Source of the DNA: Bacteroidales bacterium | Lineage (GTDB): Bacteria; Bacteroidota; Bacteroidia; Bacteroidales; UBA932 | DNA: 54,724 nucleotides | Reading direction: 5' to 3' | Assembly: GCA_017550025.1 (NCBI GenBank) | Contig: JAFYLU010000074.1 | Span: 1 to 54,724, forward strand | Shown here: one piece after another, positions 11,394 through 48,801 of the stretch | Numbering within the stretch: position 1 is the stretch's first letter | Layout of the letters: each line of letters opens with the position of its first letter | Position numbers and translations under genes: made by a program | The notes under the pieces: model-generated | The model's database searches: none | What the model saw: the letters and a program-made list of their open reading frames with translations, nothing else | Told to the model about the DNA's origin: nothing

Positions 11394-11446
11394 GAAAATC
11401 CGGCCACAGATGTAATCAATATGCCACAATCATGTCTGATGTGGCT

Positions 11447-11481
11447 GAAAAAACAAATAAATGGCAAAAACTGCCATTTAT
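11447..11481 (-). terminator. Terminator after the flavodiiron protein gene
   Basis: Perfect 9-bp stem ATAAATGGC/GCCATTTAT (11457-11465 and 11473-11481), 7-base loop, followed on the minus strand by TTGTTTTTTC. This is a good intrinsic terminator for the gene ending at 11511, and it separates that gene from the mmd promoter. Confidence 0.8.
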
Positions 11482-11510
11482 CTGAAGAAATGTGGTGAAA
11501 TGAGGTGGTT

Positions 11511-27562: not shown

Positions 27563-28291
27563 ATGAAATACGCTCTTGTTACTGGAGGTTCCAGAGGTTT
27601 AGGACGTGCTATTTGTCATAAGCTTTCACAAATGGGTATACCTGTCCTTATCAATTATCAGTCTAATCAGCAGGCTGCTGAAGAAGTCCGTGATGCAATC
27701 TGTGCAAATGGCGGCAGTGCTTCGCTTATCAGGTTTGATGTATCAGACAAGGATCAGGTTACATCCGCTCTTGAGACATGGGAGAAGGAGCATCCGGAAG
27801 ATTATATCGCTTATCTGATAAACAATGCCGGAATCCGTAGGGATAATGTTATGTTCATGATGCCCGAGGAAGACTGGCATGCGGTTATCAACACATCTCT
27901 TAACGGATTCTTCTATGTTACCCGTCAGCTTCTTCCGAAGATGATGATGCGTAAGCATGGAGGACGCATAGTAAATATGACGTCCCTTTCTGGTCTTAAG
28001 GGTATGGCAGGACAGACCAACTACAGTGCTGCCAAGGCAGCCTTGATCGGAGCTACAAAGGCTTTGGCGCAGGAGGCTGCTGCCCGTAATGTGACAGTGA
28101 ATGCTGTGGCTCCCGGATTCATCGAGACAGATATGACCAAGGATCTTCCACAGGATGAACTGAAGCATCTCGTTCCTATGAAGCGTTTTGGAAAGCCGGA
28201 AGAAGTTGCTGCACTGGTTGGATTCCTGTGCTCTGATGACGCAAGCTATATAACAGGAGAAGTAATAAGCATTAACGGAGGTCTTTATTAA
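27563..28291 (+). CDS. fabG: 3-oxoacyl-ACP reductase of the polyene cluster
   Basis: NADPH-dependent ketoreductase that reduces the beta-keto group after each chain extension. The 242-residue protein is a classical FabG: cofactor motif TGGSRGLG near residue 7, NNAGIRRDNVM near residue 88, the catalytic Ser in MTSLSGLKG, Tyr-Lys motif YSAAKAA near residue 155 and the end motif YITGEVISINGGLY. It is the first gene of the packed plus-strand operon, with the ketosynthase gene starting 3 bases after its stop. The role in this cluster rather than in primary fatty acid synthesis is inferred from position; it corresponds to the ApeQ step of aryl polyene clusters. Confidence 0.93.
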   Translation: MKYALVTGGSRGLGRAICHKLSQMGIPVLINYQSNQQAAEEVRDAICANGGSASLIRFDVSDKDQVTSALETWEKEHPEDYIAYLINNAGIRRDNVMFMMPEEDWHAVINTSLNGFFYVTRQLLPKMMMRKHGGRIVNMTSLSGLKGMAGQTNYSAAKAALIGATKALAQEAAARNVTVNAVAPGFIETDMTKDLPQDELKHLVPMKRFGKPEEVAALVGFLCSDDASYITGEVISINGGLY

Positions 28292-28294
28292 AAT

Positions 28295-29515
28295 ATGGGA
28301 AGAGTTGTAATAACCGGAATGGGCATCTGGTCATGCCTTGGTACTTCGATAGAAGAGGTAAAGGAATCATTATATAATGGTAAGTCCGGAGTCGGCATTC
28401 AGGATGAAAGGATTGCATACGGATATCAGTCTGCACTGACAGGAATTGTACCGAAACCTGTGCTTAAAGGTTTGATTGACCGTCATCTTCGTCGCGGTTT
28501 ATCAGAAGAAGCTGAATATGCATTCATGGCCAGCATTCAGGCTATGAAAATGGCAGGTATCGATCAGGAGTATCTCGATAACAATGAGGTAGGCTGTATA
28601 TTCGGCAATGACTCTTCTGCAAAGCCTGTTATTGACGCATCAAGAATCATGGACGAGAAGCATGATACAGAACTTCTCGGCCAGTCGTTCATTTTCCAGG
28701 CCATGAACTCGACAGTTACCATGAATCTCAGCACAATATTCCGTCTGAAGGGTGCTAACTTCACCATCAGTGCGGCTTGTGCGAGCGGATCACACTCGAT
28801 CGGTCTTGCATATCTTCTGATCAAGAACGGTCTGCAGAGCATGGTGCTTTGTGGTGGTGCACAGGAAGCTAATTTTGAATCAATGGCATCATTTGATGCA
28901 CTCGGAGCTTTTTCAAAGAACATGCAGGAGCCGCATAAGGCAAGTCGTCCATTCGACAAGGACAGAGACGGACTTGTTCCAAGCGGTGGTGCTGCCGCTC
29001 TCATTATCGAAGACTATGACCATGCGGTAGCTCGTGGTGCCAATATTCTTGCGGAGGTAGTCGGATATGGATTCTCATCTAACGGTACCTCTGTAATCAG
29101 TCAGCCAAGCGACGAAGGATGTTTGAGGGCAATGTCGAGAGCCATGGAAGATGCTGGCGTAAAGCCTTCTGACATCGACTATATCAATGCTCATGCGACA
29201 AGTACCAGACAGGGAGACATGTTTGAGGCAATTGCTTTGGACAAATTGTTCAGAGGTGAGCATGCATATATCTCCAGCACCAAGAGTATGACAGGACATG
29301 AGTGCTGGATGGCAGGTGCAAGTGAAGTGGTATATTCACTTATCATGATGCATAATAACTTCGTGGCACCTAATATAAATCTGGAGAATCCGGACGAGCA
29401 CGCTGCCAATTTGAATATACCTTCAAAGGCTGTCGAGACAGAGATCAATACTGTCTTGAGCAATTCATTTGGTTTCGGTGGAACAAATAGCGCGCTTGTA
29501 ATCAAGAAAGTATAG
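28295..29515 (+). CDS. Beta-ketoacyl-ACP synthase, single-domain (KS1)
   Basis: Condensing enzyme of the FabF type, 406 residues, predicted to extend the chain with malonyl-ACP. The full Cys-His-His set is visible: Cys162 in SAACASGSHS, His300 in NAHATSTRQG and His335 in MTGHECW, with the Lys just before in STKSMT. The C-terminal GFGGTNSAL loop is also intact. It lacks the C-terminal extension carried by the two other ketosynthases of the operon. It starts 3 bases after fabG and precedes an acyl carrier protein gene by 34 bases. It could be the main elongating enzyme, equivalent to ApeO or ApeR. Confidence 0.92.
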   Translation: MGRVVITGMGIWSCLGTSIEEVKESLYNGKSGVGIQDERIAYGYQSALTGIVPKPVLKGLIDRHLRRGLSEEAEYAFMASIQAMKMAGIDQEYLDNNEVGCIFGNDSSAKPVIDASRIMDEKHDTELLGQSFIFQAMNSTVTMNLSTIFRLKGANFTISAACASGSHSIGLAYLLIKNGLQSMVLCGGAQEANFESMASFDALGAFSKNMQEPHKASRPFDKDRDGLVPSGGAAALIIEDYDHAVARGANILAEVVGYGFSSNGTSVISQPSDEGCLRAMSRAMEDAGVKPSDIDYINAHATSTRQGDMFEAIALDKLFRGEHAYISSTKSMTGHECWMAGASEVVYSLIMMHNNFVAPNINLENPDEHAANLNIPSKAVETEINTVLSNSFGFGGTNSALVIKKV

Positions 29516-29549
29516 AACAATATTAATCATATTTAAATTTTTAATCGTC

Positions 29550-29792
29550 ATGAACCGTACAGAAATTGAAGCAAAAGTAAAGGATTTCCTTATTAACGAA
29601 CTTGAGATCGAGGAGGATGTGATCTTCCCGGAGGCAAAGCTTAAGGAGGATATGGGTATCGACAGTCTTGACTTCGTTGATATCGTTGTAATCGTAGAGA
29701 AGAATTTTGGCTTTAAGATCAAGGCCGAGGAGATGGTAGGTGTTGACACCTATACAAAGTTCTGCGACTATATCGAAAGCAAAATCAGTTAA
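29550..29792 (+). CDS. Acyl carrier protein 1
   Basis: Holds the growing chain as a thioester. The 80-residue acidic protein has the phosphopantetheine site GIDSLDFVD with Ser39 and the usual four-helix pattern; it starts MNRTEIEAKVKDFLINELEI. It lies between KS1 and an acyltransferase gene. No phosphopantetheinyl transferase gene is present in the window, so activation must come from an enzyme encoded elsewhere. It is one of three carrier proteins in the operon. Confidence 0.93.
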   Translation: MNRTEIEAKVKDFLINELEIEEDVIFPEAKLKEDMGIDSLDFVDIVVIVEKNFGFKIKAEEMVGVDTYTKFCDYIESKIS

Positions 29793-29795
29793 TTT

Positions 29796-30674
29796 ATGGC
29801 TCAGGGTCAGTGGGCAGGAACAACTTACGGAAATGGTTGGATGCATAAGTGTCTGATCGGTACTCTCCGTATATTGGATGTGAGACTCCTGTATTTGTTC
29901 GCATCCATATTTGTTGTCCCTGTCTGCTTGGTGTTGAATCCGAGCAGAAAGACAGCGTACAGCTATTTCCGGAACATTCACAATTATGGCAGAATCAAGG
30001 CTGCCTGGGCGACATATATAAATCATTGCAAGTTCGCCCAGGTCGTCATTGATAAGTTTGCCATGTATGCCGGCAAGAGGTTCGATGTCACCGTCGAGGG
30101 AATGGATGACTTCAACAGACTTGCATCAGGTCAGGAAGGCTTCCTGCATATGAGTTCTCATATCGGAAATTATGAGATCGCCGGATATACCCTTGTTTCA
30201 GACAGAAAGACCATCAATGCCGTCGTATATGCTCATGAGAAGGCTTCCGTCATGGAGAATCGCAATAATATGTTCACAAAGACGAACATAAGGATGATTA
30301 CTCTCAAAGAGGATATGAGCCATCTGTTTGAAATCGATCAGGCATTGTGCAATGGCGATATTGTCAGTTTCCCTACGGACCGATTCATGGGGCAGACCAA
30401 GTGCATTGAGGTTCTCTTTATGGGGAAGATGGCAAAGTTCCCGCAGGGACCCTTCAGTGTCGCGGCTATGCGTGGCTTGGATGTACTTGCCGTAAATGTG
30501 ATGAAGACCGGATTGACAAGATATAAGATCTATGTCACTCCACTTTCTTATGACAAGGAAAAGCCAAGAAAGGAACAGCTCAGACAGCTCTCTGAAGCTT
30601 ATGTTGCAGAGTTGGAAAAACGTATAACCGAGTATCCTGCTCAATGGTATAACTTCTTTGATTTTTGGAATTGA
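29796..30674 (+). CDS. LpxL/HtrB-like lysophospholipid acyltransferase
   Basis: A 292-residue membrane-associated acyltransferase of the lipid A late acyltransferase type. The catalytic His-x4-Glu motif is visible in SSHIGNYEIAGY near residue 115, and FPTDRFMGQTK near residue 190 follows the family pattern. A hydrophobic N-terminal segment (about 27-50) anchors it to the membrane. Aryl polyene clusters carry a similar enzyme, thought to join the finished polyene to a lipid or glycolipid. It starts 4 bases after the carrier protein stop, and its own stop overlaps the next start (TGATG). Confidence 0.88.
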   Translation: MAQGQWAGTTYGNGWMHKCLIGTLRILDVRLLYLFASIFVVPVCLVLNPSRKTAYSYFRNIHNYGRIKAAWATYINHCKFAQVVIDKFAMYAGKRFDVTVEGMDDFNRLASGQEGFLHMSSHIGNYEIAGYTLVSDRKTINAVVYAHEKASVMENRNNMFTKTNIRMITLKEDMSHLFEIDQALCNGDIVSFPTDRFMGQTKCIEVLFMGKMAKFPQGPFSVAAMRGLDVLAVNVMKTGLTRYKIYVTPLSYDKEKPRKEQLRQLSEAYVAELEKRITEYPAQWYNFFDFWN

Positions 30675-31126
30675 TGGATTCAGTAACATTTTCTGAAGAA
30701 TATCTTCGCTCGATTGATGTACATACGGTTCTTCCACAGCAGGAGCCGTTTGTCATGGTAGGCAATCTGATAGCATTTACATCAGATGCGTCGACTACGG
30801 AGACAGTCATCAGCGACACAAACATATTTGTCGACAACGGGTATTTTTCCCCTTCAGGCATGATGGAAAACATTGCACAGACCTGTGCCGCCAGAGTAGG
30901 ATTCTACAATAAGTATGTCCTTCATAAGGATGTTCAGGTGGGATTTATCGGTGCTGTCCGAAATTATGTCATCAATGAACTGCCTGCAGCAGGAACGACC
31001 ATACATACGGAGGTGGATATCCTTCAGGATATATTTGGAATGACGCTGGCAAATGCCCGGGTTGTTTCCGGAGACAAGGTCTATGCTACAGCCGAGATAA
31101 AGTTGTCTGTCAGAAACGTTGAATAA
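30674..31126 (+). CDS. ApeP-like hot-dog dehydratase
   Basis: A 150-residue hot-dog fold protein similar to the ApeP-type 3-hydroxyacyl-ACP dehydratases of aryl polyene clusters. Near residue 20 it has LPQQEPFVMVGN, and near residue 60 GYFSPSGMMENIAQTCAA, where the classical FabZ HFPGHP His is absent, as in ApeP-like proteins. These work with ApeI to form the double bonds. I chose the ATG at 30674, overlapping the previous stop, over an upstream TTG. It ends just before the thioesterase gene. Confidence 0.8.
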   Translation: MDSVTFSEEYLRSIDVHTVLPQQEPFVMVGNLIAFTSDASTTETVISDTNIFVDNGYFSPSGMMENIAQTCAARVGFYNKYVLHKDVQVGFIGAVRNYVINELPAAGTTIHTEVDILQDIFGMTLANARVVSGDKVYATAEIKLSVRNVE

Positions 31127-31130
31127 GCAT

Positions 31131-31559
31131 ATGGATACAGGTATTCTGCTTACTGCCGAGAAGCAGTTTGAAGTCAGATTCAGTGAGGTTGATATGATGA
31201 ATGTCGTATGGCATGGGTCATATCCTCTTTATCTGGAAGATGCCAGGGAGACTTTCGGTATCGTCCATGGCCTGTCTTATAATATGTATATCAATGAAAA
31301 CGTATTTGTTCCTATAGTCAAGATGGACATCAATTACAAGCGTCCGCTCACCTATGGAATGAAACCGGTCATCAAGATTACATATAAGCCCACAGAGGCT
31401 GCCAAGGTTATTTTTGATTATGAAATATATGACCCGAATGATGGTACAGTATTCATCACTGCCCGAACAATTCAGGTTTTCATGGACAGAAATTATCAGC
31501 TATTGTGGGATAGCCCCGAATTTTATACAAACTGGAAAAGGTCTGTCGGACTGATATGA
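31131..31559 (+). CDS. 4HBT (YbgC/FadM-like) acyl thioesterase
   Basis: A 142-residue hot-dog protein of the 4-hydroxybenzoyl-CoA thioesterase family. The signature VRFSEVDMMNVVWHGSYPLYLEDARE, where Asp and the following His/Glu are active-site positions, lies at about residues 15-40. Such thioesterases release chains from carrier proteins and are regular members of aryl polyene clusters. The ATG at 31131 is preferred to the TTG at 31119, which lies inside the previous gene. Its stop overlaps the next start (ATGA). Confidence 0.85.
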   Translation: MDTGILLTAEKQFEVRFSEVDMMNVVWHGSYPLYLEDARETFGIVHGLSYNMYINENVFVPIVKMDINYKRPLTYGMKPVIKITYKPTEAAKVIFDYEIYDPNDGTVFITARTIQVFMDRNYQLLWDSPEFYTNWKRSVGLI

Positions 31560-33253
31560 TAAAGGTTCTCTCTACGAATATCACATCACCTTTAGGGTTC
31601 ACAACGAAGGAGAACTACCAATCTCTCAAGAATGGTAGGTCTGCTTTGAGTGTGTATCATGACTGGAAGGGAGTGCCTTCATTGTTTACCGCGTCGCTCT
31701 TTAATGAAGATCAGGAGAAACAGCTTGAGAGAGAGGGATTTACCAGATTCGAGTCCATGGCGATATACTCTATCCTGGAGGCCATCTCACACACGGACGT
31801 TGATGTCAGCTCCGAGAGGACAGGACTTGTAATCAGCACTACAAAGGCCAATGTGGAAGAACTCTCTTCTTCACCGGATACTGATGGGGATTATCGTGGA
31901 CCAGGACAATCAGCTGTAAAAATTGCAAGAGCCCTAGGCTTTACGACTGATCCGATTGTCGTATGCAATGCATGCATATCGGGTGTGACGGCACAGGTCC
32001 TGGCTGACAGGCTGATTTCAGGCGGCAGCTATGATACTATGGTTGTCTGCGGCGCTGATTGTCAGAGTGTATTTGTTGTGGCCGGATTCATGTCATTCAA
32101 ATCCTTATCGCCATACGAATGCAGGCCTTTTGACATAGAGCGTCTCGGACTCAACCTCGGAGAAGCAGCTGCAACGATTGTATTCGGGAAGGTAAGTGCA
32201 ACTGATGCAGACAAGACCTCTTGGAAGCTTGTTGCCGGCAGTCTGAATAATGATGCCTATCATGTCAGCGCCCCTTCTCCTGATGGAGACGGAACATACC
32301 GTGCTGCGAGAAGTATTCTGGAGCATGTCAGGCCCGAGTCATTGGCTACAGTCAGCGTCCATGGAACGGCTACGATGTTCAATGACCAGATGGAGTCGAA
32401 AGCCATCGAGAGAGCTCAACTGTCCGATGTGCCTGTTTCTGCTTTGAAAGGATATTACGGCCACACGCTTGGTGCTGCCGGTGTCCTTGAAACCATCATT
32501 ACGATGGAAGCCACGGATGACGGCATTGTCCTTCCGGTAAGGGGATATTCTGAAATCGGAGTCAGCGGCAGAGTGAATATCAGCGATCAATGCAGAAATA
32601 CCGGAAAGACGTCCTTTATCAAACTGATATCAGGCTTCGGAGGATGCAATGGAGCTGTTGCATTTGCCAAGACTTCAGGAGCAGTATTGCCGCAGCCGCA
32701 TAAGGATATACATACATTGAGTACTGTAAGGATTTCTCCATCCTCATTGGTGATTGACGGCGAAGTCCAGGAAGTTTCTTCAACAGGAAGGGCTCTTCTT
32801 ACGGAAATATACAAGACATATATCGGGGATTATCCAAAGTTCCATAAGATGGATGTCTTTACCAAAGTAGCATTCCTGGCAGCTGATATCCTTGCTCAAC
32901 GCACTCGGGATCATCGGGATGAAGAACGTGCTGTAATCCTTTTCAACAGTTCTTCGTCAATTGTCGCCGACAGAAAGCATATAGCGACCTTTGAGAGAGA
33001 AGGTGAGTTCTATCCGAGTCCTTCTGTGTTCCTGTACACATTACCGAATATAGTGACTGGAGAGATATCGATACGGCATGGGTACAAGGGCGAAACATCA
33101 CTATATATCATTGATGGATATAACGAGCAGATAATAAACAAAATAGTCGAAACCACCTTTTTACAGTCTCCTGTCAGGACAATGATGACCGGATGGGTTG
33201 ACTGCAGGTCGGAAGACGACTTTGAAGCAAATCTAAAGTTAGTAACAATATAA
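31556..33253 (+). CDS. Ketosynthase with C-terminal KS-like extension (KS2)
   Basis: A 565-residue protein, about 160 longer than a normal ketosynthase. Residues 1-385 form a KS domain with Cys140 (CNACISG), His269 (SVHGTATM) and His303 (GYYGHTLGAAG), so the condensing set is complete. Residues about 390-565 form a second unit whose AVILFNSSSSIVADRKH and PSPSVFLYTLPNIVTGEIS segments look like the front half of another thiolase fold, as in the ketosynthase N-terminal-like family used by chain length factors. I infer a fused partner domain that may set chain length or hold the starter. It lies 11 bases before ACP2. Confidence 0.85.
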   Translation: MIKVLSTNITSPLGFTTKENYQSLKNGRSALSVYHDWKGVPSLFTASLFNEDQEKQLEREGFTRFESMAIYSILEAISHTDVDVSSERTGLVISTTKANVEELSSSPDTDGDYRGPGQSAVKIARALGFTTDPIVVCNACISGVTAQVLADRLISGGSYDTMVVCGADCQSVFVVAGFMSFKSLSPYECRPFDIERLGLNLGEAAATIVFGKVSATDADKTSWKLVAGSLNNDAYHVSAPSPDGDGTYRAARSILEHVRPESLATVSVHGTATMFNDQMESKAIERAQLSDVPVSALKGYYGHTLGAAGVLETIITMEATDDGIVLPVRGYSEIGVSGRVNISDQCRNTGKTSFIKLISGFGGCNGAVAFAKTSGAVLPQPHKDIHTLSTVRISPSSLVIDGEVQEVSSTGRALLTEIYKTYIGDYPKFHKMDVFTKVAFLAADILAQRTRDHRDEERAVILFNSSSSIVADRKHIATFEREGEFYPSPSVFLYTLPNIVTGEISIRHGYKGETSLYIIDGYNEQIINKIVETTFLQSPVRTMMTGWVDCRSEDDFEANLKLVTI

Positions 33254-33264
33254 TTTAAGAAACT

Positions 33265-33522
33265 ATGAATGAATTGATACAGACTCTCAAAGAGCAGATC
33301 ATTGACGCTCTTAACCTTGAAGAAATCACACCGGCAGACATTGAAAATGATGCTCCTCTTTTCGGAGCCGGTCTCGGTCTTGATTCTATTGATGCATTGG
33401 AGCTTATAGTGATTCTTGACAGATATTATGGAATCAAGCTTGCGAATCCTGCAGAAGGCAAGGAAATCTTCAAGAGTGTCAGCTCTATTGCTGATTATGT
33501 AGCAAAGAACAGAACAAAATAA
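33265..33522 (+). CDS. Acyl carrier protein 2
   Basis: An 85-residue acyl carrier protein. The phosphopantetheine site is GLGLDSIDALELIV with Ser41; helix II and the ILDRYYGIKL segment are typical. The gene sits between the two extended ketosynthases, and its stop overlaps the start of KS3 by one base (TAATG), which suggests that it serves these enzymes. It differs clearly from carrier proteins 1 and 3, so the three are not recent copies. Confidence 0.93.
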   Translation: MNELIQTLKEQIIDALNLEEITPADIENDAPLFGAGLGLDSIDALELIVILDRYYGIKLANPAEGKEIFKSVSSIADYVAKNRTK

Positions 33523-35270
33523 TGAACAATACCATATCGGTAACAGGTCTGGGCATCATTTGCTCCATCGGTAACAATGCTGATTCTGTCCTTGACTCCC
33601 TTCTTAAAAGAAAGTCAGGTGTAGGACCTATGAAATACCTGCAGTCAAAGCACTCATATCTTCCTGTCGGAGAAGTACAGCTGTCTAATGACCAGATGAA
33701 GGATATCCTTGGCATCAAGGATGAGACTCCGATGAGCCGTACAACCCTTATGGGTGCGATAGCGATCAGACAGGCTCTTGAGCACGCTGGCATTACAGTA
33801 GAAGACCTTGATGGGAAAAGAGTAGCCCTTATATCCGGTACTACAGTCGGCGGCATGGACCTGACTGAAAATTACTACGAGCAGATGAAGACCGATGATT
33901 CATTGCTTTATCTGCCGAAGAGCAATGAATGCGGTAAGAGTACAGAAGAGATGGCTGAAATAATCGGCCTGAAAAATGTTCAGACATGTACTATATCTAC
34001 TGCATGCTCGTCGGCTCTCAACTCTATTATCCTTGGCTCTGAAATGCTTAAAAGAGATGAGGTCGATCTGGTGATTGCAGGTGGTTCGGAAGCATTGAGC
34101 AGATTCCATCTCAATGGATTCAATACCTTGATGATACTTGACAAGGAACAGTGCCGTCCGTTCGATGATACAAGAGCCGGCCTGAACCTTGGCGAAGGAG
34201 CTGCATTTGTCATACTCGAGAAGAATTCATCACATAGCCTTGCCTATGTTGCAGGATATGGAAACAGATGCGATGCGTTCCACCAGACTGCTTCTTCAGA
34301 AAATGGTGAGGGAGCATATCTGGCAATGAAGGATGCACTTGAAATGGCCGGACTTCAGCCTGGGGATATACAGTATGTAAATGCGCATGGAACCGGTACT
34401 CCGAATAATGATATAACCGAAAGTCAGTCTCTCAAACGTATTTTTGGCGAGAGCATGCCTGAGGTTTCGAGTACGAAGGCCTTTACAGGGCATACGACAT
34501 CTGCATCGGGATCTATCGAGACTGTTATCTGTATACTTGCTATGCAGAATAACTTTACGCCGGCCAATCTTGGATGGCAGAATAAGATCGAGGGTGGCAT
34601 AGTGCCTACATCAGGCAAAGAGAACGTCGTCCTTGAGAATGTCATATGTAATTCTTTCGGATTTGGTGGTAACGACTCCTCTATGGTAATCAGTAAGTCT
34701 GCACCAGCATCATCTGAAGAGATTGTGCCGGATCATTCTTATAAGATCGTTGCAGAAGAGACAGTTACAGATGTCGAAGTTCTGAAAGAACTGAAGGAAT
34801 TCGTATCTCCAATGGAGTCAAGGAGAATGGGCAAGTTGATGAAGGCTGCACATCTGACTTCACTCCGAGCTTTGAAGAAGGCAGGCATTGAATGTCCGGA
34901 TGCGATTATTACCGCGACTTCACGCGGTATGCTTGAGATCAGCCTCCAGTTCCTGGATGACATCACAGCATTTGGTGAGGAGCTGCTCAAGCCTACATTG
35001 TTCATGCAGAGTACGCACAATACCCTCAGCTCGGCTATCGCTATCCGTACGAAATGCCATGGATACAATACGACATACTCCCATGGTGATGAATCTTTTG
35101 AATGGGCTATGCGGGACGCCGTGAGACTGATCCAGACCGGTAAGGTGAATTCTGTTCTTGTAGGCTCATTTGATGAGTCGACCCCATCCTTTTCAATGAT
35201 TGCGGAAAGGTCAGGTGAACAGGCCCCACAGGAGATATTTGCAAAAGCAATAGTGTTAGTTAAGGAATAG
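33522..35270 (+). CDS. Ketosynthase with C-terminal KS-like extension (KS3)
   Basis: A 582-residue protein with the same two-part build as KS2. Residues 1-395 form a FabF-like ketosynthase with Cys162 (STACSSALNS), His289 (NAHGTGTPNND) and His324 (FTGHTTSASGS). Residues about 400-582 form a second thiolase-like half with DAIITATSRGMLEIS, MQSTHNTLSSAIAI and YSHGDESFEWAM, which recall the ketosynthase N-terminal-like family. All catalytic residues of the first part are intact; the extension has no Cys at the expected place. It starts within the stop of ACP2 and ends 3 bases before the EamA-like gene. Confidence 0.86.
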   Translation: MNNTISVTGLGIICSIGNNADSVLDSLLKRKSGVGPMKYLQSKHSYLPVGEVQLSNDQMKDILGIKDETPMSRTTLMGAIAIRQALEHAGITVEDLDGKRVALISGTTVGGMDLTENYYEQMKTDDSLLYLPKSNECGKSTEEMAEIIGLKNVQTCTISTACSSALNSIILGSEMLKRDEVDLVIAGGSEALSRFHLNGFNTLMILDKEQCRPFDDTRAGLNLGEGAAFVILEKNSSHSLAYVAGYGNRCDAFHQTASSENGEGAYLAMKDALEMAGLQPGDIQYVNAHGTGTPNNDITESQSLKRIFGESMPEVSSTKAFTGHTTSASGSIETVICILAMQNNFTPANLGWQNKIEGGIVPTSGKENVVLENVICNSFGFGGNDSSMVISKSAPASSEEIVPDHSYKIVAEETVTDVEVLKELKEFVSPMESRRMGKLMKAAHLTSLRALKKAGIECPDAIITATSRGMLEISLQFLDDITAFGEELLKPTLFMQSTHNTLSSAIAIRTKCHGYNTTYSHGDESFEWAMRDAVRLIQTGKVNSVLVGSFDESTPSFSMIAERSGEQAPQEIFAKAIVLVKE

Positions 35271-35273
35271 TAT

Positions 35274-35624
35274 ATGCCACTTATTATTTTAGCGATAATC
35301 CAGAGTCTTCTGCTGGCCGGCGGACAGGTCTTGCTTAAGTTTGCCCTTGCCAGGATGCTTCCGTTTTCCATGAGCTGGGACTTTTGGAAATCCGTTTTCG
35401 CCAACTGGCAGTTTGCCGCATGTGGACTATGCTACGGAGCCGGAAGCATCCTCTGGTTCTATATTGTGAAGAATTATCCTTTCAGCATGGCATATCCTCT
35501 TGTCTCCTTGAGTTACGTCTTCGGAATGATCGCTGCAATAGTGTTTTTCAATGAGACCGTCGATCTTATGAAATGGATCGGAGTATTGTTGATTATGGCG
35601 GGCTGTTATTTTATAGCAAGATGA
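35274..35624 (+). CDS. Small EamA/SMR-like membrane protein
   Basis: A 116-residue protein of four membrane helices (about 3-25, 40-62, 70-90, 95-115), the size of an SMR-type transporter or an ArnE-like flippase subunit. Motifs are GGQVLLKFALARM near residue 17 and YPFSMAYPLVSLSYVFGMIAA near residue 69. ArnE-like proteins flip lipid-linked sugars, so a role in moving a polyene lipid intermediate is possible. It works either as a homodimer or with an unknown partner. Its stop overlaps the start of the LolA-like gene. Confidence 0.75.
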   Translation: MPLIILAIIQSLLLAGGQVLLKFALARMLPFSMSWDFWKSVFANWQFAACGLCYGAGSILWFYIVKNYPFSMAYPLVSLSYVFGMIAAIVFFNETVDLMKWIGVLLIMAGCYFIAR

Positions 35625-36244: not shown

Positions 36245-36246
36245 TT

Positions 36247-37040: not shown

Positions 37041-37049
37041 CAGGAATTC

Positions 37050-41550: not shown

Positions 41551-41551
41551 T

Positions 41552-42691
41552 ATGTTTGAAGATATACGTCCATATAAGGATTCTGAAATTTCTGCTGCAA
41601 TGTCACGCATTGCTGTCAATCCCTATTTCCCGAAGCTTGCGGAATTTGTCTTTCCGCATCTGTCTGTCGAGGAAATTCGTAAAAAGCTGACAGCTATAGA
41701 TAATATTCGTGACTTTCAGCACAAAGTGATGCATCAGGCGAATCTCAGGATCATAGAAGAGTCTGTCTCCCAATTCACATACAGTGGTATGGAACGGGTG
41801 GATCCGAGCCGAAACTATCTCTATGTATCAAACCACAGAGATATCATGCTTGATGCTTCACTGTTACAATCAGTTCTCATAAGCCATAATTTCAAGACAA
41901 CAGAAATTACCTTCGGTGCGAATCTGATGAAAGGGCAGCTCGTGATTGATCTCGGCAAATCCAACAAGATGTTCAAGGTCGAGCGTCCCGGAGGCAGCAT
42001 CAGGGAATTCTACAGATCTTCGAAGCATCTTTCGGATTATATCAGAATGACTCTTCTTCAGAAGAAGGAATCCGTTTGGATCGCCCAGAGAAACGGAAGG
42101 ACAAAGGATGGAATAGACCGCACTGACCAAGGTATCATCAATATGTTCAGGATGAGCTTTGATGGTGATAAGGTACAGTCTGTTGCTGACCTGAATATTG
42201 TACCGGTTGCCGTATCATATGAATGGGAACCTTGTGACCTGCTCAAGGTGATGGAGCTTTATATCTCTACCCAGCATAAAGGTACTTATGTAAAGAAGGA
42301 AGGAGAAGATCTGAACAGTATCCTGACAGGTATAATTCAGCCTAAAGGTAAGGTGCATCTGGCTTTGTGCGAGCCTATTACCAAAGACGATCTTCTGCCT
42401 TTTGCGGATCTCCCGTCAAATGAATTCAACAGAAGGGTGGCCTCCCTGATAGACCAGCGTATCTGTACAGAATATGTACTTGCCTCCAATAATTATATCG
42501 CACATGATATCTTAAGCGGAAGTGACAGATATTCATCATATTATACAACAGAGGAAAAGGAACATTTCATCAGGCATTTTTCATCACTGGAATCATATGC
42601 CGAAGATTGCGATGTGGATGAGATGAAAAACATTCTGCTGGGCATCTATGCCAATCCTATTGAGAGTAAGAAATATTTCAGCCAGTTCTGA
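41552..42691 (+). CDS. PlsC-like acyltransferase
   Basis: A 379-residue acyltransferase of the glycerol-3-phosphate/lysophosphatidate type. The catalytic motif is SNHRDIMLDASL near residue 91 (His-x4-Asp), followed by FKVERPGGS and WIAQRNGRTKDG near residue 175, the family's later blocks. It has no signal peptide or strong membrane helix, so it is probably peripheral. It is the third acyltransferase unit in the operon, after the LpxL-like and the fused PlsC-like domains, suggesting that more than one acyl group is attached. Its stop overlaps the start of the exporter gene (TGATG). Confidence 0.85.
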   Translation: MFEDIRPYKDSEISAAMSRIAVNPYFPKLAEFVFPHLSVEEIRKKLTAIDNIRDFQHKVMHQANLRIIEESVSQFTYSGMERVDPSRNYLYVSNHRDIMLDASLLQSVLISHNFKTTEITFGANLMKGQLVIDLGKSNKMFKVERPGGSIREFYRSSKHLSDYIRMTLLQKKESVWIAQRNGRTKDGIDRTDQGIINMFRMSFDGDKVQSVADLNIVPVAVSYEWEPCDLLKVMELYISTQHKGTYVKKEGEDLNSILTGIIQPKGKVHLALCEPITKDDLLPFADLPSNEFNRRVASLIDQRICTEYVLASNNYIAHDILSGSDRYSSYYTTEEKEHFIRHFSSLESYAEDCDVDEMKNILLGIYANPIESKKYFSQF

Positions 42692-45450
42692 TGAATTTTA
42701 TAGTAAACATATATGACCGGATTGCAAGGCGTTCAAGACTCCTGTGGGCAAGTCTTGCGGGCTTTGTCATTCTGTTTGTCTGTCTTATCTTAAATCTGAA
42801 CTACAGTGAGGATATAAATGATTTCCTTCCGCTTGGTACATCCGAGCAGGAGTCCCTTGCCGTGTATCAGAAAATATCCGGTGCAGAGCGTATGTATATG
42901 CTTTTCACTAATCCTGGCGATGAAGACATGACCTTGGATGCCATCGACTGTTTCATCAGCAGCGTCCATGATATGGATTCACTGGGATGGTGCGCGGACC
43001 TTACTGCACAATACGATATGAGTATGATGCAGGAAGTGTCGGATTTTATATACGGCAACATACCTTACTTCCTGACTCATGATGACTATGAGCGCATGGA
43101 CAGCCTGCTTGCCAGACCGGGATATATAGAAGAGCAGCTCGAGAGAAACAAGCAGATGCTTATGTTCCCGTCCGGCGGTATGATGACTGCTTCTGTGACC
43201 AGGGATCCGTTAGGATTGTTCACACCGGTCATGGCTCATCTGCAGGACTCGGATCCAAAGATGAGCTTTGAAATGTACGAAGGGTATATCTTTACTCCTG
43301 ACATGAGCAGGGCAGTGGCTATGATGAGCTCCCCGTTCGGCAACAGCGAGACTGAATACAATTCGCAGATGCTTGATATCCTTCATCTTGCTGCAGAGCA
43401 GATGAGTGAAAAGTATCCCGAGGTCGGAGTAACCATTATCGGAGGCCCTGAAATAGCTGTCGGTAATGCCTCGAGAATCAAGAAGGACAGCATCATAGCG
43501 ATACTTCTGTCTGTCGTCCTTATTACATTGCTTGTGACATATTCCATAGGTTCACTACGGAATATTCTGCTTATTTTCTTGTCCATCGGATGGGGATGGC
43601 TGTTTGCGTTGGCGGGAATGTCGCTGTTCGCAAGCCAGGTTTCAATCATAGTCATAGGTATATCTAGTGTAATACTCGGTATTGCGGTCAATTATCCTTT
43701 GCATATGATTGTGCATCTTTCTCATAACCCGGATGTAAGGACGACATTGAAAGATCTGCTACTTCCCCTCGTCATCGGTAACATAACGACTGTGGGCGCG
43801 TTCATGACTTTGATTCCTCTTCAGTCTGTCGCATTGAGGGATATGGGACTCTTTGCCTCGCTGCTCCTGGTCGGTACCATTTTGTTCGTCATCTTCTACC
43901 TGCCGCATATGCTCAAGGTAAAGGCTGTTGAAAAAAGGAAGAGCAGGCTGCTTGATAAGATCTCGTCAGTTTCTCCCGAGAATAACCGCTGGGTAATAGT
44001 CGCTATGGTACTTGTGACGGTGGTTCTTTCTTTTTTCAGCTTCAGGACAGAATTTGACTCAAACATATCGAATATCAACTATATGACCGATGCCCAGCGT
44101 CGGGACATGCAGTATTTCCAGAATCTCCTTTCCAAGGAGTCGGCAGTCACTACAAGAGATGTCTATGTCCTTTCATCAGCAGAAACCTTTGATGAAGCCT
44201 TATCAATGAACACAGGGGTAGTGAAGACAATTGACAGCCTTGTCAGTACGGGTGTTGTCAAGAGGTATTCAGGAGTGTCGAGATTCCTCGTTTCAAAGGA
44301 TGAGCAGGCAGAGAGGCTTTTGATGTGGAATGATTTTGTGAACAGACATCAGGAGGCCTTGACCAAGCAATTCGCTGAAGCGGCTGGTCGCGCCGGTTTC
44401 TCTGACAGAGCTTTCAGGCAATTCTCAGAATTGATTGCCAGGGATGAAATGCCGGAACCTCAGGATATGGATTTTTTTGAGCCTCTTACAAGTCTCATAT
44501 TCAGTCAGAATATCGCCCGTCTTGAGGACAGAGGCAAGTCGTATGTCATAAATACCCTCAAGGTTGAGGCTGATGATGTTGAAACTGTCAAATCATATTT
44601 CAACGAAAGTTTTGATGTTGTCGGAATGAACAGTGCTCTGTCAGACAACCTTTCCGATAATTTCAACTATATCGGCTGGGCCTGCTCGCTGATAGTCTTT
44701 TTCTTCCTTTGGTTCTCGTTCGGACGAATCGAGCTGGCAATCATTGCATTTGTTCCTATGGCGGTCAGCTGGATCTGGATTCTTGGAATAATGGCTGTCT
44801 TCGGTATAAAGTTCAATATCGTCAATGTAATCCTTGCCACATTCATATTTGGTCAGGGAGATGATTATACGATATTCATGACGGAAGGATGTCAGCATGA
44901 ATATACATTCCGCAAACCTATCCTGACATCTTATAAGAGCAGTATCATTCAGTCTGCATTGATCATGCTGGTTGGAATAGGCACCTTGATAATATCCAGA
45001 CATCCTGCGATGCGTTCGCTGGCGGAAGTCACCATTGTAGGTATGATATCGGTTGTACTGATGTCATATACATTGCCTCCGCTTATGTTCAAATGGCTGA
45101 CCATGAAGAACGGAAGCTACAGAATGCATCCTGTCACCCTTAAGACAATCTTCTGCGGAGTACCGGAAGACCCGGCGGAGCTTGTTGCAGGACGCTATAT
45201 TTATAAGGGTATCTCTGTAAGCAGAGAAGTGAAGCGTAATCTGAAGGCAAATATTCAGCAGATCTCACAAACTGACCTTAATGGACTAAAGGAATATACA
45301 TGCACAGATAAGGGTTATGGTGAAACTTCAATACTTCTTGCACTCCTGAACCCGGATGTGAAGATCAAGGCACATATGACTGACGAGGAAAGGCGGGAAG
45401 TTGCCGTCGTGTCAGCCATGGATTTTGTAAACAATATAGAATTTAAATAA
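42691..45450 (+). CDS. MMPL/RND-family exporter with extra soluble C-terminal tail
   Basis: A 919-residue transporter of the MMPL branch of RND pumps, likely to move the lipid-linked product out of the inner membrane. One helix at about 17-37 precedes a large periplasmic loop, then a helix bundle at about 270-410 with IVIGISSVILGIAVNYPLHM; the pattern repeats after residue 430, with the second bundle at about 655-800 (ILATFIFGQGDDYTIFMTEG). The last 85-90 residues are soluble and odd: the GYGETSILLALLNPDVKIKA and DEERREVAVV stretches look like the nucleotide-binding start of a methyltransferase fold, cut short. The next gene, ACP3, starts 4 bases after. Confidence 0.88.
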   Translation: MNFIVNIYDRIARRSRLLWASLAGFVILFVCLILNLNYSEDINDFLPLGTSEQESLAVYQKISGAERMYMLFTNPGDEDMTLDAIDCFISSVHDMDSLGWCADLTAQYDMSMMQEVSDFIYGNIPYFLTHDDYERMDSLLARPGYIEEQLERNKQMLMFPSGGMMTASVTRDPLGLFTPVMAHLQDSDPKMSFEMYEGYIFTPDMSRAVAMMSSPFGNSETEYNSQMLDILHLAAEQMSEKYPEVGVTIIGGPEIAVGNASRIKKDSIIAILLSVVLITLLVTYSIGSLRNILLIFLSIGWGWLFALAGMSLFASQVSIIVIGISSVILGIAVNYPLHMIVHLSHNPDVRTTLKDLLLPLVIGNITTVGAFMTLIPLQSVALRDMGLFASLLLVGTILFVIFYLPHMLKVKAVEKRKSRLLDKISSVSPENNRWVIVAMVLVTVVLSFFSFRTEFDSNISNINYMTDAQRRDMQYFQNLLSKESAVTTRDVYVLSSAETFDEALSMNTGVVKTIDSLVSTGVVKRYSGVSRFLVSKDEQAERLLMWNDFVNRHQEALTKQFAEAAGRAGFSDRAFRQFSELIARDEMPEPQDMDFFEPLTSLIFSQNIARLEDRGKSYVINTLKVEADDVETVKSYFNESFDVVGMNSALSDNLSDNFNYIGWACSLIVFFFLWFSFGRIELAIIAFVPMAVSWIWILGIMAVFGIKFNIVNVILATFIFGQGDDYTIFMTEGCQHEYTFRKPILTSYKSSIIQSALIMLVGIGTLIISRHPAMRSLAEVTIVGMISVVLMSYTLPPLMFKWLTMKNGSYRMHPVTLKTIFCGVPEDPAELVAGRYIYKGISVSREVKRNLKANIQQISQTDLNGLKEYTCTDKGYGETSILLALLNPDVKIKAHMTDEERREVAVVSAMDFVNNIEFK

Positions 45451-45454
45451 AGCT

Positions 45455-45676
45455 ATGAAGCAGAATATCCTGTCACTTCTTTCGGAAGCATTGCCAGCTG
45501 TGGACTTCCAGTCTGATTTCCTCTTCAGCGAGCTGGATTCATTAGGCATTGTAACGATTCTCGTGATCTTATCCAAGGAGTATAACATTTCTCTTGATGC
45601 TACTGATGTGACACCAAGAAACTTTCGGTCTATTGATACGATTGTTAAAATGGTAGAATCTAAACTTGCTAAATGA
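45455..45676 (+). CDS. Acyl carrier protein 3
   Basis: A short 73-residue carrier protein. The phosphopantetheine Ser29 lies in SELDSLGIVTIL, and the rest follows a carrier-protein helix pattern ending MVESKLAK. It is shorter at the N terminus than the two others and lies 9 bases before an AMP-dependent ligase gene, so I infer that the ligase loads the starter acid on this protein. The ATG at 45455 is 4 bases after the exporter stop. Confidence 0.85.
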   Translation: MKQNILSLLSEALPAVDFQSDFLFSELDSLGIVTILVILSKEYNISLDATDVTPRNFRSIDTIVKMVESKLAK

Positions 45677-45685
45677 TACTGACTT

Positions 45686-47011
45686 ATGACACTTGAGCAA
45701 AGCATATATCATCACTCTGTCACAACCCCTGGGAAAACAGCTGCTGTCTGCGGAAATGAGAGTGTCACATACTCTCAACTGTGGGACGGCATCATAAGGA
45801 AGGCAGAAGAACTCAAGTCCGAAGGTGTCTTGCCGAACAGACCCTATGTATTCCGCGCGAGCCAGGATATAGATTTTGTCGTGACTTATTGTGCTGTTCA
45901 TCATATAGGTGCCATTGCTGTTCCTATGGAGCAGAAGGTTACTGATGAATACTTCAATGCAATAAGCGCCGAAGTGGCCGCATGTGAATTTTCAGAAGAT
46001 ATCGTTGACATTCTCTATACTACCGGAACAACCGGTAAGTCAAAGGGTGTGATGCTGTCAGAGACAGCACTTGTATCATGTGCAGACAACTTTATAACCG
46101 ACCTTCAGTTCTCGTCAGACCTGCTTTTTATCATAAGCGGTCCTTTGAGTCATATAGCATCTCTTTTCAAGATGCATCCGGTCCTGACTGTTGGTGGAAC
46201 AATCTGCATATTGGACGGTCTGAAAGACATCAATGCCTTTTTTGACGTCTTTGACCTCCCGTTCAGGAAGTTCGCTACATTCATGGTGCCGGCCAGCCTT
46301 CGTCTCATAATGCAGTTCTCCTATGACAGGTTATGCAGTCTTGCTGATAAAATCGATTTTATCGAAACGGGTGCTGCTCCTATCACCCAGCATGATATGG
46401 AAATGCTTGCCAAAGCCCTACCTGCCTCACGTCTGTATAACACATTGGGAGGTACCGAAATAGGTGCTGTCTGTACATACAACTTCAATGACGGAAGGTA
46501 TATGGAGGGCTGCATAGGCCGTCCTATGAAGAATTCAACCGTAGAGGTCACTCCGGAAGGAAACATCATAGTTTCAGGCCTTACCATCATGAGCGGATAT
46601 GTGGCTGACGAGGAAAACACAGCTCGTGTCCTTAAAGATGGAAAGATATATGGTGCCGACTTGGGATATGTTGATGATGAGGGACTTATCCATCTCAAGG
46701 GTCGTCAGGGCGATGTCATAAATGTCGGAGGATTCAAGGTGGATCCTTCCGAAGTTGAGAATGCTGCCGCTTCTCATCCGGATATAAAGGACTGCATCTG
46801 TATCGCTGCGACTCATCCTGTGATCGGCACTGTGCTCAAGCTTCTTGTCGTTCTTGCGGATAACCGTGAACTTGATAAAAGGTCAATTGCCGTTCATATA
46901 AAGTCAAAGCTGGAGCCGCATAAGGTACCGACCTATTATGAGGCTGTCGATACTATACAGCGTACATATAACGGTAAGTTAGATAGAAAGTTTTACAAGA
47001 TTCAAGGATAA
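45686..47011 (+). CDS. AMP-dependent acyl/aryl ligase
   Basis: A member of the ANL superfamily that activates a carboxylic acid as the adenylate and passes it to a thiol, probably ACP3. The 441-residue protein has the P-loop YTTGTTGKSKGVMLS near residue 112, NTLGGTEIGAV near residue 252, the GADLGYVDDEGLIHLKGR hinge region near residue 320, and the catalytic Lys in TYNGKLDRKF at the end. It is shorter than the usual 500-550 residues, with a reduced N-terminal domain, as often seen in ligases of biosynthetic clusters. It is the best candidate for selecting the starter acid, which cannot be predicted. Confidence 0.9.
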   Translation: MTLEQSIYHHSVTTPGKTAAVCGNESVTYSQLWDGIIRKAEELKSEGVLPNRPYVFRASQDIDFVVTYCAVHHIGAIAVPMEQKVTDEYFNAISAEVAACEFSEDIVDILYTTGTTGKSKGVMLSETALVSCADNFITDLQFSSDLLFIISGPLSHIASLFKMHPVLTVGGTICILDGLKDINAFFDVFDLPFRKFATFMVPASLRLIMQFSYDRLCSLADKIDFIETGAAPITQHDMEMLAKALPASRLYNTLGGTEIGAVCTYNFNDGRYMEGCIGRPMKNSTVEVTPEGNIIVSGLTIMSGYVADEENTARVLKDGKIYGADLGYVDDEGLIHLKGRQGDVINVGGFKVDPSEVENAAASHPDIKDCICIAATHPVIGTVLKLLVVLADNRELDKRSIAVHIKSKLEPHKVPTYYEAVDTIQRTYNGKLDRKFYKIQG

Positions 47012-47024
47012 GACCTGTTTTGCT

Positions 47025-47834
47025 ATGAAAAATATGTTTGTCAGACTTAAGTCTATATTCACTCCGCGATCGGAAGAATATGCGGTTTATGGACCCCAGG
47101 GCGGCATTTCTACAAAAATCACTCTGCCTGATGGATTCAATACCGAAAGAGATAAGTGCCCGATGGCAATTCTGATGCATGGATTCATGTCCAATAAGAA
47201 AATGTATCCTGTTCCAATGCTTGCCGAAGCTTTGGCCAAAGAGGGTATTGCCTCCGTCTGTTTTGATTTCAATGCACATGGCAAGAGCGAGGGTGAGTTC
47301 ATCGACATGACAATTGTCGGTGAGATCGAAGATGCAAAGGCCGTCTTCAGATATGTAAATTCACTCCCATATGTGACTGAAACAATATTCGTCGGTCACT
47401 CGCAGGGTGGCGTGATAGCCGGTATGCTGGCTGGAGAATTGCAGACAGAGGAAAAGAAGCCTGAATGTCTCGTATTGCTTGCTCCTGCGGCAGTTCTTAA
47501 GGATGATGCCATTGCCGGACAATGCATGGGTAAAAGATATGATGCGGCCAACCCGCCGGAATATGTCAACGTGATGTTTCACAAGCTTGGACGTAAGTTC
47601 ATCCTGGCAGCACAAAAACTTCCTGTTTACGAGGTGTCTTGTGAATATACCGGCAAGGTCTGCCTGATTCATGGAAAGCGTGATAAGATTGTTCCGTTTT
47701 CATACAGTGAAAAATATCATGAACTGTATTCTGACAGTGAACTTCACCTGCTTGAAGACGAGGGTCACTTCATGAATGCGGATAAAGATAAGGTCATGTC
47801 TATTGTGACGGACTTTATTAAAAGTAATCTATAG
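47025..47834 (+). CDS. Alpha/beta hydrolase (thioesterase/esterase-like)
   Basis: A 269-residue soluble alpha/beta hydrolase. The oxyanion segment is ILMHGFMSNKK near residue 50, the nucleophile elbow is VGHSQGGVIAG with Ser126, and later DKIVPFSYSEKYHE (Asp) and DEGHFMNADKD (His) complete a classical triad. It resembles acyl esterases and S-formylglutathione hydrolase-like proteins. In this operon it may release or proofread chains on carrier proteins. It begins 13 bases after the ligase stop. The 91 bases that follow separate it from fabD and contain no clear terminator. Confidence 0.83.
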   Translation: MKNMFVRLKSIFTPRSEEYAVYGPQGGISTKITLPDGFNTERDKCPMAILMHGFMSNKKMYPVPMLAEALAKEGIASVCFDFNAHGKSEGEFIDMTIVGEIEDAKAVFRYVNSLPYVTETIFVGHSQGGVIAGMLAGELQTEEKKPECLVLLAPAAVLKDDAIAGQCMGKRYDAANPPEYVNVMFHKLGRKFILAAQKLPVYEVSCEYTGKVCLIHGKRDKIVPFSYSEKYHELYSDSELHLLEDEGHFMNADKDKVMSIVTDFIKSNL

Positions 47835-47925
47835 ACAGCTCTGCATGGATCTGTCAAGTATATGAGATCTGTGCATTTGCTGAATTTGTTTAATAAAAGA
47901 TAAGTCGAATAAAATCGTAAACAAC

Positions 47926-48801
47926 GTGAAAAAAGCATACATCTTCCCTGGACAGGGATCCCAGTTTACAGGAATGGGAAAAGAACTATATGATAACAAT
48001 CCCGTAGCTCGTGAAATGTTTGAAAAGGCAGATGAGATCCTTGGATTTCGCATATCAGATATAATGTTCAATGGCACAGCAGAGGATCTGAAGCAGACAA
48101 AGGTTACGCAGCCTGCGGTATTCCTTCATTCTGTGATCATGGCAAAGTGTCTGGAGGATTTCACGCCTGATATGGTTGCAGGTCATTCTCTGGGAGAGTT
48201 TTCCGCACTCGTGGCATGTGGCGCACTGGATTTCGAGTCAGCACTCAAGCTGGTTTCGGTCAGGGCAAAGGCAATGCAGCGTGCTTGTGAATTGAATCCC
48301 GGTACGATGGCGGCTGTCATAACACTTCCGGAGGAAACAATATCCGAGATATGTGCTTCCTGCGATGGCATTGTGGTTCCGGCAAACTACAACAGCAAGA
48401 GACAGATCGTAATTTCCGGAGAAGTCTCGGCTGTGGAGCAGGCATGCGTGAAAATGAAGGAGGCCGGTGCCAGAAGGGCGTTGGTCCTTCCTGTCGGAGG
48501 TGCATTCCATTCTCCATTGATGGAGCCTGCACGTCAGGAACTTGCTGAATGTATCAGAAACACTGAATTCAAGACTCCTTCATGTCCTGTTTATCAGAAT
48601 GCCACAGCTATGCCTGTGACAGATCCGGAAGTGATCAAGGATAATCTCCTCAAGCAGCTTACAGCACCTGTAAGATGGACACATACCGTTGAGAATATGA
48701 TTCAGGACGGGGCTGTGGAATTCATCGAAGTCGGTCCCGGTGCAGTTCTCCAGGGACTCGTAGGGCAGATTTCATCCGAAGTCAGCGCACATGGCGCCTG
48801 A
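47926..48801 (+). CDS. fabD: Malonyl-CoA:ACP transacylase
   Basis: Loads malonyl groups on acyl carrier proteins, giving the extender unit. The 291-residue protein has IFPGQGSQFTGMG at the N terminus, the active-site motif AGHSLGEFSAL with Ser88, and GAFHSPLM with His195. It begins with a GTG codon (residues MKKAYIFPGQG), the only start that leaves the GQGSQ motif intact. Position after the cluster suggests that it serves it; it could equally be the housekeeping fabD, since no other copy is visible here and the gap before it is 91 bases. Confidence 0.93.
   Translation: MKKAYIFPGQGSQFTGMGKELYDNNPVAREMFEKADEILGFRISDIMFNGTAEDLKQTKVTQPAVFLHSVIMAKCLEDFTPDMVAGHSLGEFSALVACGALDFESALKLVSVRAKAMQRACELNPGTMAAVITLPEETISEICASCDGIVVPANYNSKRQIVISGEVSAVEQACVKMKEAGARRALVLPVGGAFHSPLMEPARQELAECIRNTEFKTPSCPVYQNATAMPVTDPEVIKDNLLKQLTAPVRWTHTVENMIQDGAVEFIEVGPGAVLQGLVGQISSEVSAHGA

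Follow-up and report, generated by a model that had tools for sequence, protein, structure and literature searches.

The window analysed here is the whole stretch of 54,724 nucleotides and corresponds to contig C81 in a draft Bacteroidales genome of 2.6 Mb (121 contigs, 83.5% complete). Its positions 27563-48801 encode 22 densely packed genes, all on the forward strand, and the core of this operon is, judged from its sequence, a flexirubin/aryl-polyene type II synthase. We assign it to the flexirubin type because two curated models pass: FlxB (NF053542, 398.8 bits, cut-off 340) for the FabG-type ketoreductase (27563-28291) and LolA2_flexi (NF053544, 202.7 bits, cut-off 125) for the LolA-like carrier (35573-36244). 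An earlier note on this DNA had proposed that the product is a polyene lipid of a new or uncharacterised class; the synthase itself is not of a new class. We predict, with reasonable confidence, that the starter module of this flexirubin-type operon has been exchanged and that the synthase is primed by a plant hydroxycinnamate. The lyase and ligase genes of relatives are replaced by other genes, and a cinnamoyl-esterase homologue that keeps its catalytic and 4-hydroxyl-binding residues is tightly linked to the new ligase. In a small number of distant operons, the ligase has an esterase of a second, unrelated family as its neighbour. A fuller proposal, toward which we lean only slightly, is that a herbivore-gut Bacteroidales lineage makes an outer-membrane aryl-polyene lipid headed by a plant hydroxycinnamate that is released from esters of the cell wall or the diet. 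The linked esterases would have been recruited on at least two occasions, from unrelated families, and the acid would be loaded directly onto a dedicated carrier.

In the ancestral form, represented in many genomes of the family, FlxA would make p-coumarate from tyrosine and FlxY would activate it, with FlxJ methylating the ring in most cases. In the window, we predict that the alpha/beta hydrolase encoded at 47025-47834 cleaves a plant ester to release a hydroxycinnamate, with p-coumarate or ferulate the probable candidates. Activation of this acid with ATP and its loading onto the acyl carrier protein (ACP) encoded at 45455-45676 (ACP3) would fall to the AMP ligase (45686-47011). The ketosynthases, FlxB-type reductase and dehydratases may then extend the starter with malonyl units to form an aryl polyene. 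The polyene would then be attached to a lipid and transferred to the outer membrane with the help of acyltransferases, LolA/LolB-like proteins and an MMPL pump. The ligase is likely the step that chooses the starter, as had been suggested before. The accompanying idea of an unrelated starter acid fits less well, as the cinnamoyl-esterase homologue and the dedicated ACP suggest a hydroxycinnamate from plant esters.

The operon has no gene for an aromatic ammonia lyase (PF00221). A single PF00221 gene turned up in the draft genome, on contig C119; it is hutH-like and lies between genes that resemble those for urocanase and imidazolonepropionase (neighbours named from sequence). The search of the draft genome thus upholds the absence of an aromatic ammonia lyase that the earlier note reported. 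This absence is not unusual by itself, given that 4-hydroxybenzoate is the predicted starter of the aryl polyene in E. coli (PMC8253772). FlxY and FlxJ were not identified in the window genome either. Of the resorcinol-forming DarA/DarB pair, which the earlier note reported as missing, no DarB was seen: the only KASIII gene (PF08541) found in this incomplete genome is fabH-like and sits beside an enoyl-reductase-like gene on contig C118, and no search was made for DarA.

Relatives show which genes were replaced. Of 149 family genomes searched with the CrtI/CrtD-like protein Crt1 of the operon, 67 were positive, the window genome included. The ligase was sought in 398 family genomes (E <=1e-60, four candidates scored per genome), of which the 149 are taken to be part, and a second sample comprised 80 ligase loci, the best 80 of 147 matches. 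Among the regions read, 11 Crt1-positive relatives have a PF00221-type gene directly upstream of FabG, and their representatives match FlxA (838.5 bits, cut-off 700), the PaaK-type ligase FlxY (704.9 bits, cut-off 520) and the methyltransferase FlxJ (612.1 bits, cut-off 560). The AMP ligase is present in 36 of the 398 genomes. Among the 67 Crt1-positive genomes, a FlxA-type lyase occurs in none of the eight that carry the ligase vs. 51 of the 59 others (one of the 51 a short fragment), and eight of the 67 have neither gene. Fisher's test for this exclusion gives p = 2e-6, with kinship ignored. Likewise, no FlxA-type lyase was found in 28 ligase-carrying family genomes or in 50 ligase genomes from the 80-locus set, two sets that overlap; lyase matches in 12 of the 50 reach just 33-37% identity, as hutH gives. 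FlxY scores above its cut-off in all 13 FlxA genomes examined (preselected as FlxA-positive) and in none of 22 ligase genomes.

We consider it well supported by these gene distributions that FlxA and FlxY were replaced, in the lineage of the window, by an ACP and an unrelated AMP ligase. The draft state of the genome (83.5% complete, in 121 contigs) could be taken to mean that a FlxA/FlxY module resides in its missing part. The inferred absence of the lyase rests also on relatives for this reason, and fuller genomes with the same ligase (e.g., G183, at 98%) lack both the FlxA-type lyase and FlxY, so that an artefact of this kind is extremely unlikely.

The protein encoded at 47025-47834 matches chlorogenate and cinnamoyl esterases in the PDB (10bv, 7xrh, 8skm and 3pf8; E 3e-54 to 2e-53). 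It is identical to LJ0536, the cinnamoyl esterase of Lactobacillus johnsonii, at 99 of 220 aligned positions (45%). Orthologues (at least 63% identity) occur in 13 of the 36 ligase genomes and in none of the 362 others, and the remaining 43 esterase matches in the 398 genomes are at most 55% identical, save one short fragment at 56%. The esterase gene is less than 1 kb from the ligase gene in 11 of the 13 orthologue genomes, and on another contig in the other two (G226 and G231). In the 80-locus set, 24 of the 39 loci whose ligase is at least 62% identical to that of the window (close-ligase loci) have the esterase at a distance of 11-932 bp from the ligase, against none of the 41 others (distant-ligase loci); one of the latter, L159, has the esterase in two pieces, too short to count. 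Three arrangements were seen: the esterase follows the ligase on the same strand, converges with it, or lies beyond another esterase-like gene, estX. We reject a chance neighbourhood on these locus counts, along with the count over the 398 genomes. A source is given in 14 of the 24 esterase-linked locus records, and all are ruminant or horse gut (there is no control set for this figure).

Residues of the window esterase inform its predicted specificity. The catalytic triad is S126, D220 and H248, and D161 is equivalent to Asp138 in the inserted subdomain of LJ0536; Met168 and Phe192 stand at the positions of Gln145 and Tyr169. The triad and the Asp138 equivalent are kept in all 25 ligase-linked copies, and the same 25 show Thr144 to Cys, Gln145 to Met and Tyr169 to Phe. 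Two unlinked orthologues also keep the triad and Asp138 and have Phe at 169. Paralogues differ: Tyr is found at 169 in all 18 that were compared (of the 43), and Asp138 is kept in eight of these. In LJ0536, Asp138 is reported to bind the 4-hydroxyl and Tyr169 the 3-hydroxyl of the substrate (PMC3158066). Because Asp138 is kept and Tyr169 has become Phe, we infer that the esterase favours 4-hydroxycinnamoyl esters without a 3-hydroxyl, i.e., p-coumaroyl or feruloyl esters. The window genome encodes two more cinnamoyl-esterase paralogues (C89, 18178-18942, and C72, 2855-3622), one of which keeps Asp138 and Tyr169 while the other has Ala at 138.

An esterase of this kind might alternatively hydrolyse or remodel the finished aryl-polyene ester and have no part in starter supply. 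The family cleaves arylacryloyl esters, of which the expected product is one, and both operon types hold estX as another esterase-like gene. We find this role very doubtful, given that the esterase is tied to the ligase, that its orthologues were found in ligase genomes only, and that the CE1-type esterases beside the ligase elsewhere resemble ferulic acid esterases of the arabinoxylan type. The gene estX was considered as a feruloyl esterase and rejected, since its best NCBI models are for pectin-acetylesterase and acetylxylan-esterase (under cut-off) and it occurs in FlxA operons too. One copy passes the Pfam BD-FAE model, and estX is not used as evidence here.

The CE1-type esterases are found next to the ligase in certain operons without the cinnamoyl-esterase homologue. 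Three copies match PF00756 (75-107 bits, cut-off 22), and that of L206 matches the ferulic acid esterases 8bbp and 6rzn (E 8e-74 to 3e-73). An intact CE1 esterase gene lies 9-302 bp from the ligase in four of the 41 distant-ligase loci (L169, L170, L182 and L206), and another lies 276 bp from the ligase in genome G218; L199 has weak CE1 pieces only, about 1 kb away. The same search gave no CE1 esterase near the ligase in any of the 39 close-ligase loci and none in the FlxA-type loci. In L169 and L170, the CE1 esterase occupies the position next to the ligase that belongs to the ACP in other loci. That two unrelated families of putative hydroxycinnamoyl esterases should stand beside one ligase by chance is hard to credit. 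At L190, a glucuronoyl-esterase-like gene (11364-12602; PF22244, 228.7 bits), from a further family of plant cell-wall esterases, was identified 68 bp from the ligase on the opposite strand, and this is the sole locus with such a gene.

The ligase matches PF00501 and PF13193, and its best PDB match is the feruloyl-CoA synthetase 8wev (E 4e-32), which has little lead over other matches. We regard it as a putative phenolic-acid:ACP ligase. ACP3 (73 aa; PF00550, 24.6 bits, cut-off 20.8) occupies what appeared to be a gap upstream of the ligase gene, and 77 of 79 loci of the 80-locus set have an ACP-like open reading frame (ORF) with a DSL motif immediately before the ligase (a script picked 78 of the 79; its pick at L169 was discounted, as it is not an ACP on reading). 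By analogy with ApeH, which is reported to load an ACP directly (PMC8253772), the ligase may transfer the acid directly to this carrier.

A phenolic starter is also suggested by FlxJ, which shares 47% identity with ApeB, a methylase of E. coli. With full-length FlxJ defined as at least 528 bits (eight copies are under the 560 cut-off, and groups were assigned by hand), it occurs in 26 of 28 ligase genomes at about 52% ligase identity or less, in none of four at 54-60%, and in one of 34 at 62% or more. Since FlxJ is kept in those 26 of 28, the ligase outside the esterase clade probably still feeds a phenolic starter. Its loss inside the esterase clade fits a supply of ready-made plant phenol.

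These data bear on the possibility that a fatty or short-chain acid is the substrate of the ligase, with the product a non-aryl polyene lipid and the CrtI-like proteins acting on its chain. The top general models for the ligase are long-chain fatty acyl-CoA ligases, and CrtI-like proteins accompany fatty-acid genes in anammox clusters proposed for polyunsaturated lipids (PMC2649909). However, the retention of FlxJ, the ApeB homologue, outside the esterase clade argues against a non-aromatic starter, and Crt1 and Crt2 are encoded in FlxA operons too and thus are no marker of a non-aryl product. We judge a starter of this kind improbable.

Several observations weigh against a hydroxycinnamate supplied by a linked esterase, or against the strength of the case for the exchange. 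Neither esterase adjoins the ligase in most distant-ligase loci (e.g., in Prevotella and Bacteroides), which means that the ligase cannot need a linked esterase everywhere. Among 20 neighbouring ORFs from loci without either esterase, no cinnamoyl or CE1 esterase was identified; there is one glucuronoyl esterase (L190) and one BD-FAE protein (L176, estX), and the rest are unrelated. Of the 15 close-ligase loci without the cinnamoyl-esterase homologue, five have less than 1.2 kb downstream and two carry it on another contig, which leaves 8 of the 39 close-ligase loci lacking it with no technical reason. Gln145, important in LJ0536, is Met in the window esterase, as it is in the eight paralogues that keep Asp138. 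There is no curated specificity model for the ligase, and feruloyl-CoA synthetase heads its PDB matches by a slight margin. A transporter for hydroxycinnamates was not seen. FlxJ is present in 9 of 13 FlxA genomes and missing in the other four, and 7 of the 22 ligase genomes have weaker PaaK-type ligases under the FlxY cut-off. The MMPL tree (77 rows, from 98 loci tried) has two changes between the lyase and ligase states, with the long-branched FlxA row G098 falling among ligase rows; with about two changes, the Fisher p overstates the exclusion. On this tree, the replacement of the starter genes appears to be essentially one old exchange.

The ligase may instead activate another free aromatic acid of the gut (4-hydroxybenzoate, phenylpropionate or 4-hydroxyphenylacetate), with the esterases accessory or kept for other reasons. 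For the aryl polyene of E. coli, 4-hydroxybenzoate is the predicted acid and ApeH its ligase (PMC8253772). Furthermore, most distant-ligase loci lack both esterases and (where tested) FlxA yet mostly keep FlxJ, so some phenolic acid reaches the ligase by another route. However, UbiC was not identified in any of 17 genomes (the E. coli control was positive), and on this count we reject 4-hydroxybenzoate via UbiC. XanB2-like chorismatase (PF21168) was also not found in the 17 genomes, but no control genome matched and the result is uninformative. In addition, the ligase is no orthologue of ApeH (24% identity over 112 residues), and the adjoining of two unrelated hydroxycinnamoyl-esterase families to the ligase in different lineages speaks against an accessory role. 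Another free aromatic acid thus seems rather unlikely, and we continue to favour a plant hydroxycinnamate.

The genes named in the earlier note are present on one strand, as profile searches confirm. Its list of aryl-polyene core genes stands for nearly all members, the exception being the ApeP/FabZ-like dehydratase (30665-31126), a weak assignment: the product has no Pfam match and no BLAST match to E. coli ApeP, and it scores 19.4 bits with the FabZ model, far under cut-off, although homologues in relatives hold the same position. Missing from the note were Crt1 and Crt2, the PlsC-like acyltransferase, the EamA protein, the LolB2-like protein, ACP3 and the cinnamoyl-esterase homologue.

Downstream of the FabG-type gene, the operon encodes ketosynthase KS1 (28295-29515; PF00109/PF02801, 35% to E. 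coli ApeR), ACP1 (29550-29792; PF00550, 36.7 bits), an LpxL-like acyltransferase (29796-30674; PF03279) and, after the putative dehydratase, a hot-dog thioesterase (31119-31559; PF13279, 30% to ApeK). KS2 (31556-33253; PF00109/PF02801) has a C-terminal extension, and is followed by ACP2 (33265-33522; PF00550, 33.1 bits, 49% to ApeE) and by KS3 fused to a chain-length-factor-like half (33522-35270; PF00109/PF02801 and PF13723, the C-terminal half 28% to ApeC). In several relatives, KS2 and KS3 and their extensions match as separate pieces, and the window genes look like gene fusions. An EamA/SMR-like membrane protein (35274-35624; PF00892) precedes the LolA2 carrier. Then come a LolB2-like protein (36241-36672; NF053540, 27.2 bits, under the cut-off of 60) and an ApeI-like dehydratase (36669-37040; PF07977, 27.1 bits, cut-off 23; PF22818, 26.1 bits, under the cut-off of 28.5). 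Further genes are for a GT2 glycosyltransferase-acyltransferase fusion (37050-38552; PF00535 and PF01553, the glycosyltransferase part 34% to ApeJ), the CrtI/CrtD-like FAD oxidoreductases Crt1 (38536-40041) and Crt2 (40042-41550), both PF01593 and both under the TIGR02733 cut-off (120.9 and 92.9 bits), the PlsC-like acyltransferase (41552-42691; PF01553) and the MMPL exporter (42691-45450; PF03176). The last gene, directly after the esterase, is for a FabD-like malonyl transacylase (47926-48801; PF00698, 168.5 bits). It probably belongs to the operon, and a homologue lies within the operon of G291 and G301 (loci L091 and L093). The Bacteroidetes promoter pattern has two matches in the window (0.93 expected), and none is upstream of the operon or the ligase.

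The closest relatives with the ligase locus are recorded as Bacteroidales, Paludibacteraceae, Rikenellaceae or Alistipes, and remoter ones as Bacteroidaceae, Prevotella or Bacteroides. At four loci (L157, L161, L162 and L163), a second set of KS1, ACP, LpxL, ApeP, LolA and glycosyltransferase genes, mostly in the opposite orientation, adjoins the ligase operon, so that two polyene operons lie side by side. A smaller operon type was seen at L040 (8715-15123) and L059 (1787-10122), with genes for KS1, ACP, thioesterase, MMPL, one Crt1-like protein and FabG.

Aryl polyenes and flexirubins are pigments found widely among bacteria, and antioxidant protection is attributed to them. If our prediction is true, fibre digestion would be tied directly to membrane protection by a starter module scavenging plant phenolics, and the head group of the pigment would come from the host's food, not from tyrosine. 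Gut clusters annotated as flexirubin would not necessarily make flexirubin. The operon would be a precise and testable case of a biosynthetic line that trades a self-made starter for a dietary one. In the open literature (titles and abstract openings), no hydroxycinnamate-scavenging aryl polyene cluster appeared under the terms searched.

Among known systems, the window resembles, by description only, the anammox type II fatty acid synthesis (FASII) clusters proposed for ladderanes (PMC2649909, PMC4790861) in having CrtI-like proteins beside ketosynthases, an ACP and a dehydratase. The CrtI-like pair is present in both FlxA-type and ligase-type operons. The FlxA-type relatives L024, L029 and L034 encode a B12 radical SAM protein as well as a PaaK-type ligase and in this, too, recall the anammox clusters by description; the window lacks radical SAM and PaaK genes. 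The radical SAM protein of L024 weakly matches TIGR04072 (rSAM_ladder_B12; 43.5 bits, cut-off 360).

Like LJ0536 (PMC3158066, as described in the available part), the window esterase keeps the Ser-Asp-His triad and Asp138. Unlike LJ0536, it has Met for Gln145, Cys for Thr144 and Phe for Tyr169, and its gene adjoins that of a biosynthetic ligase.

Window proteins match 12 of the 18 proteins of the ape cluster of E. coli CFT073 (BLAST, E <=0.01, some weakly): ApeC, D, E, F, I, J, K, L, M, O, Q and R, with ApeH a weak thirteenth. No window protein matches ApeA, B, G, N or P by BLAST. The E. coli-type set of ketosynthase, chain length factor, ketoreductase, dehydratase, ACP, thioesterase, glycosyltransferase-acyltransferase, LolA and MMPL proteins is thus present, with the ApeP dehydratase unmatched. 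Starter supply differs from that of the ape cluster (PMC8253772 in its available part; locus L209), as the window ligase is no ApeH orthologue and no UbiC was found.

A gut cluster of Bacteroides xylanisolvens, pBGC-12, is termed flexirubin-like by synteny (PMC12940132, in the text available), and whether FlxA or the AMP ligase of the window type is encoded there bears on its product. In the flxA-flxY cluster of Chitinophaga pinensis, FlxA was assayed as a tyrosine ammonia-lyase and FlxY as a 4-coumarate-CoA ligase (PMC3992019, in the part available). The window has the CrtI-like pair in addition; the main text of that paper does not contain the word phytoene, and the C. pinensis genome was not searched for CrtI-like genes. 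Relatives of the window retain FlxA, FlxY and mostly FlxJ, as in C. pinensis. The window itself shares with that cluster the FlxB-type reductase, LolA2, ketosynthases, dehydratases, thioesterase, acyltransferases, glycosyltransferase and exporter. It differs in lacking FlxA, FlxY and FlxJ, with no DarB seen, and in carrying ACP3, an unrelated ligase and the cinnamoyl-esterase homologue.

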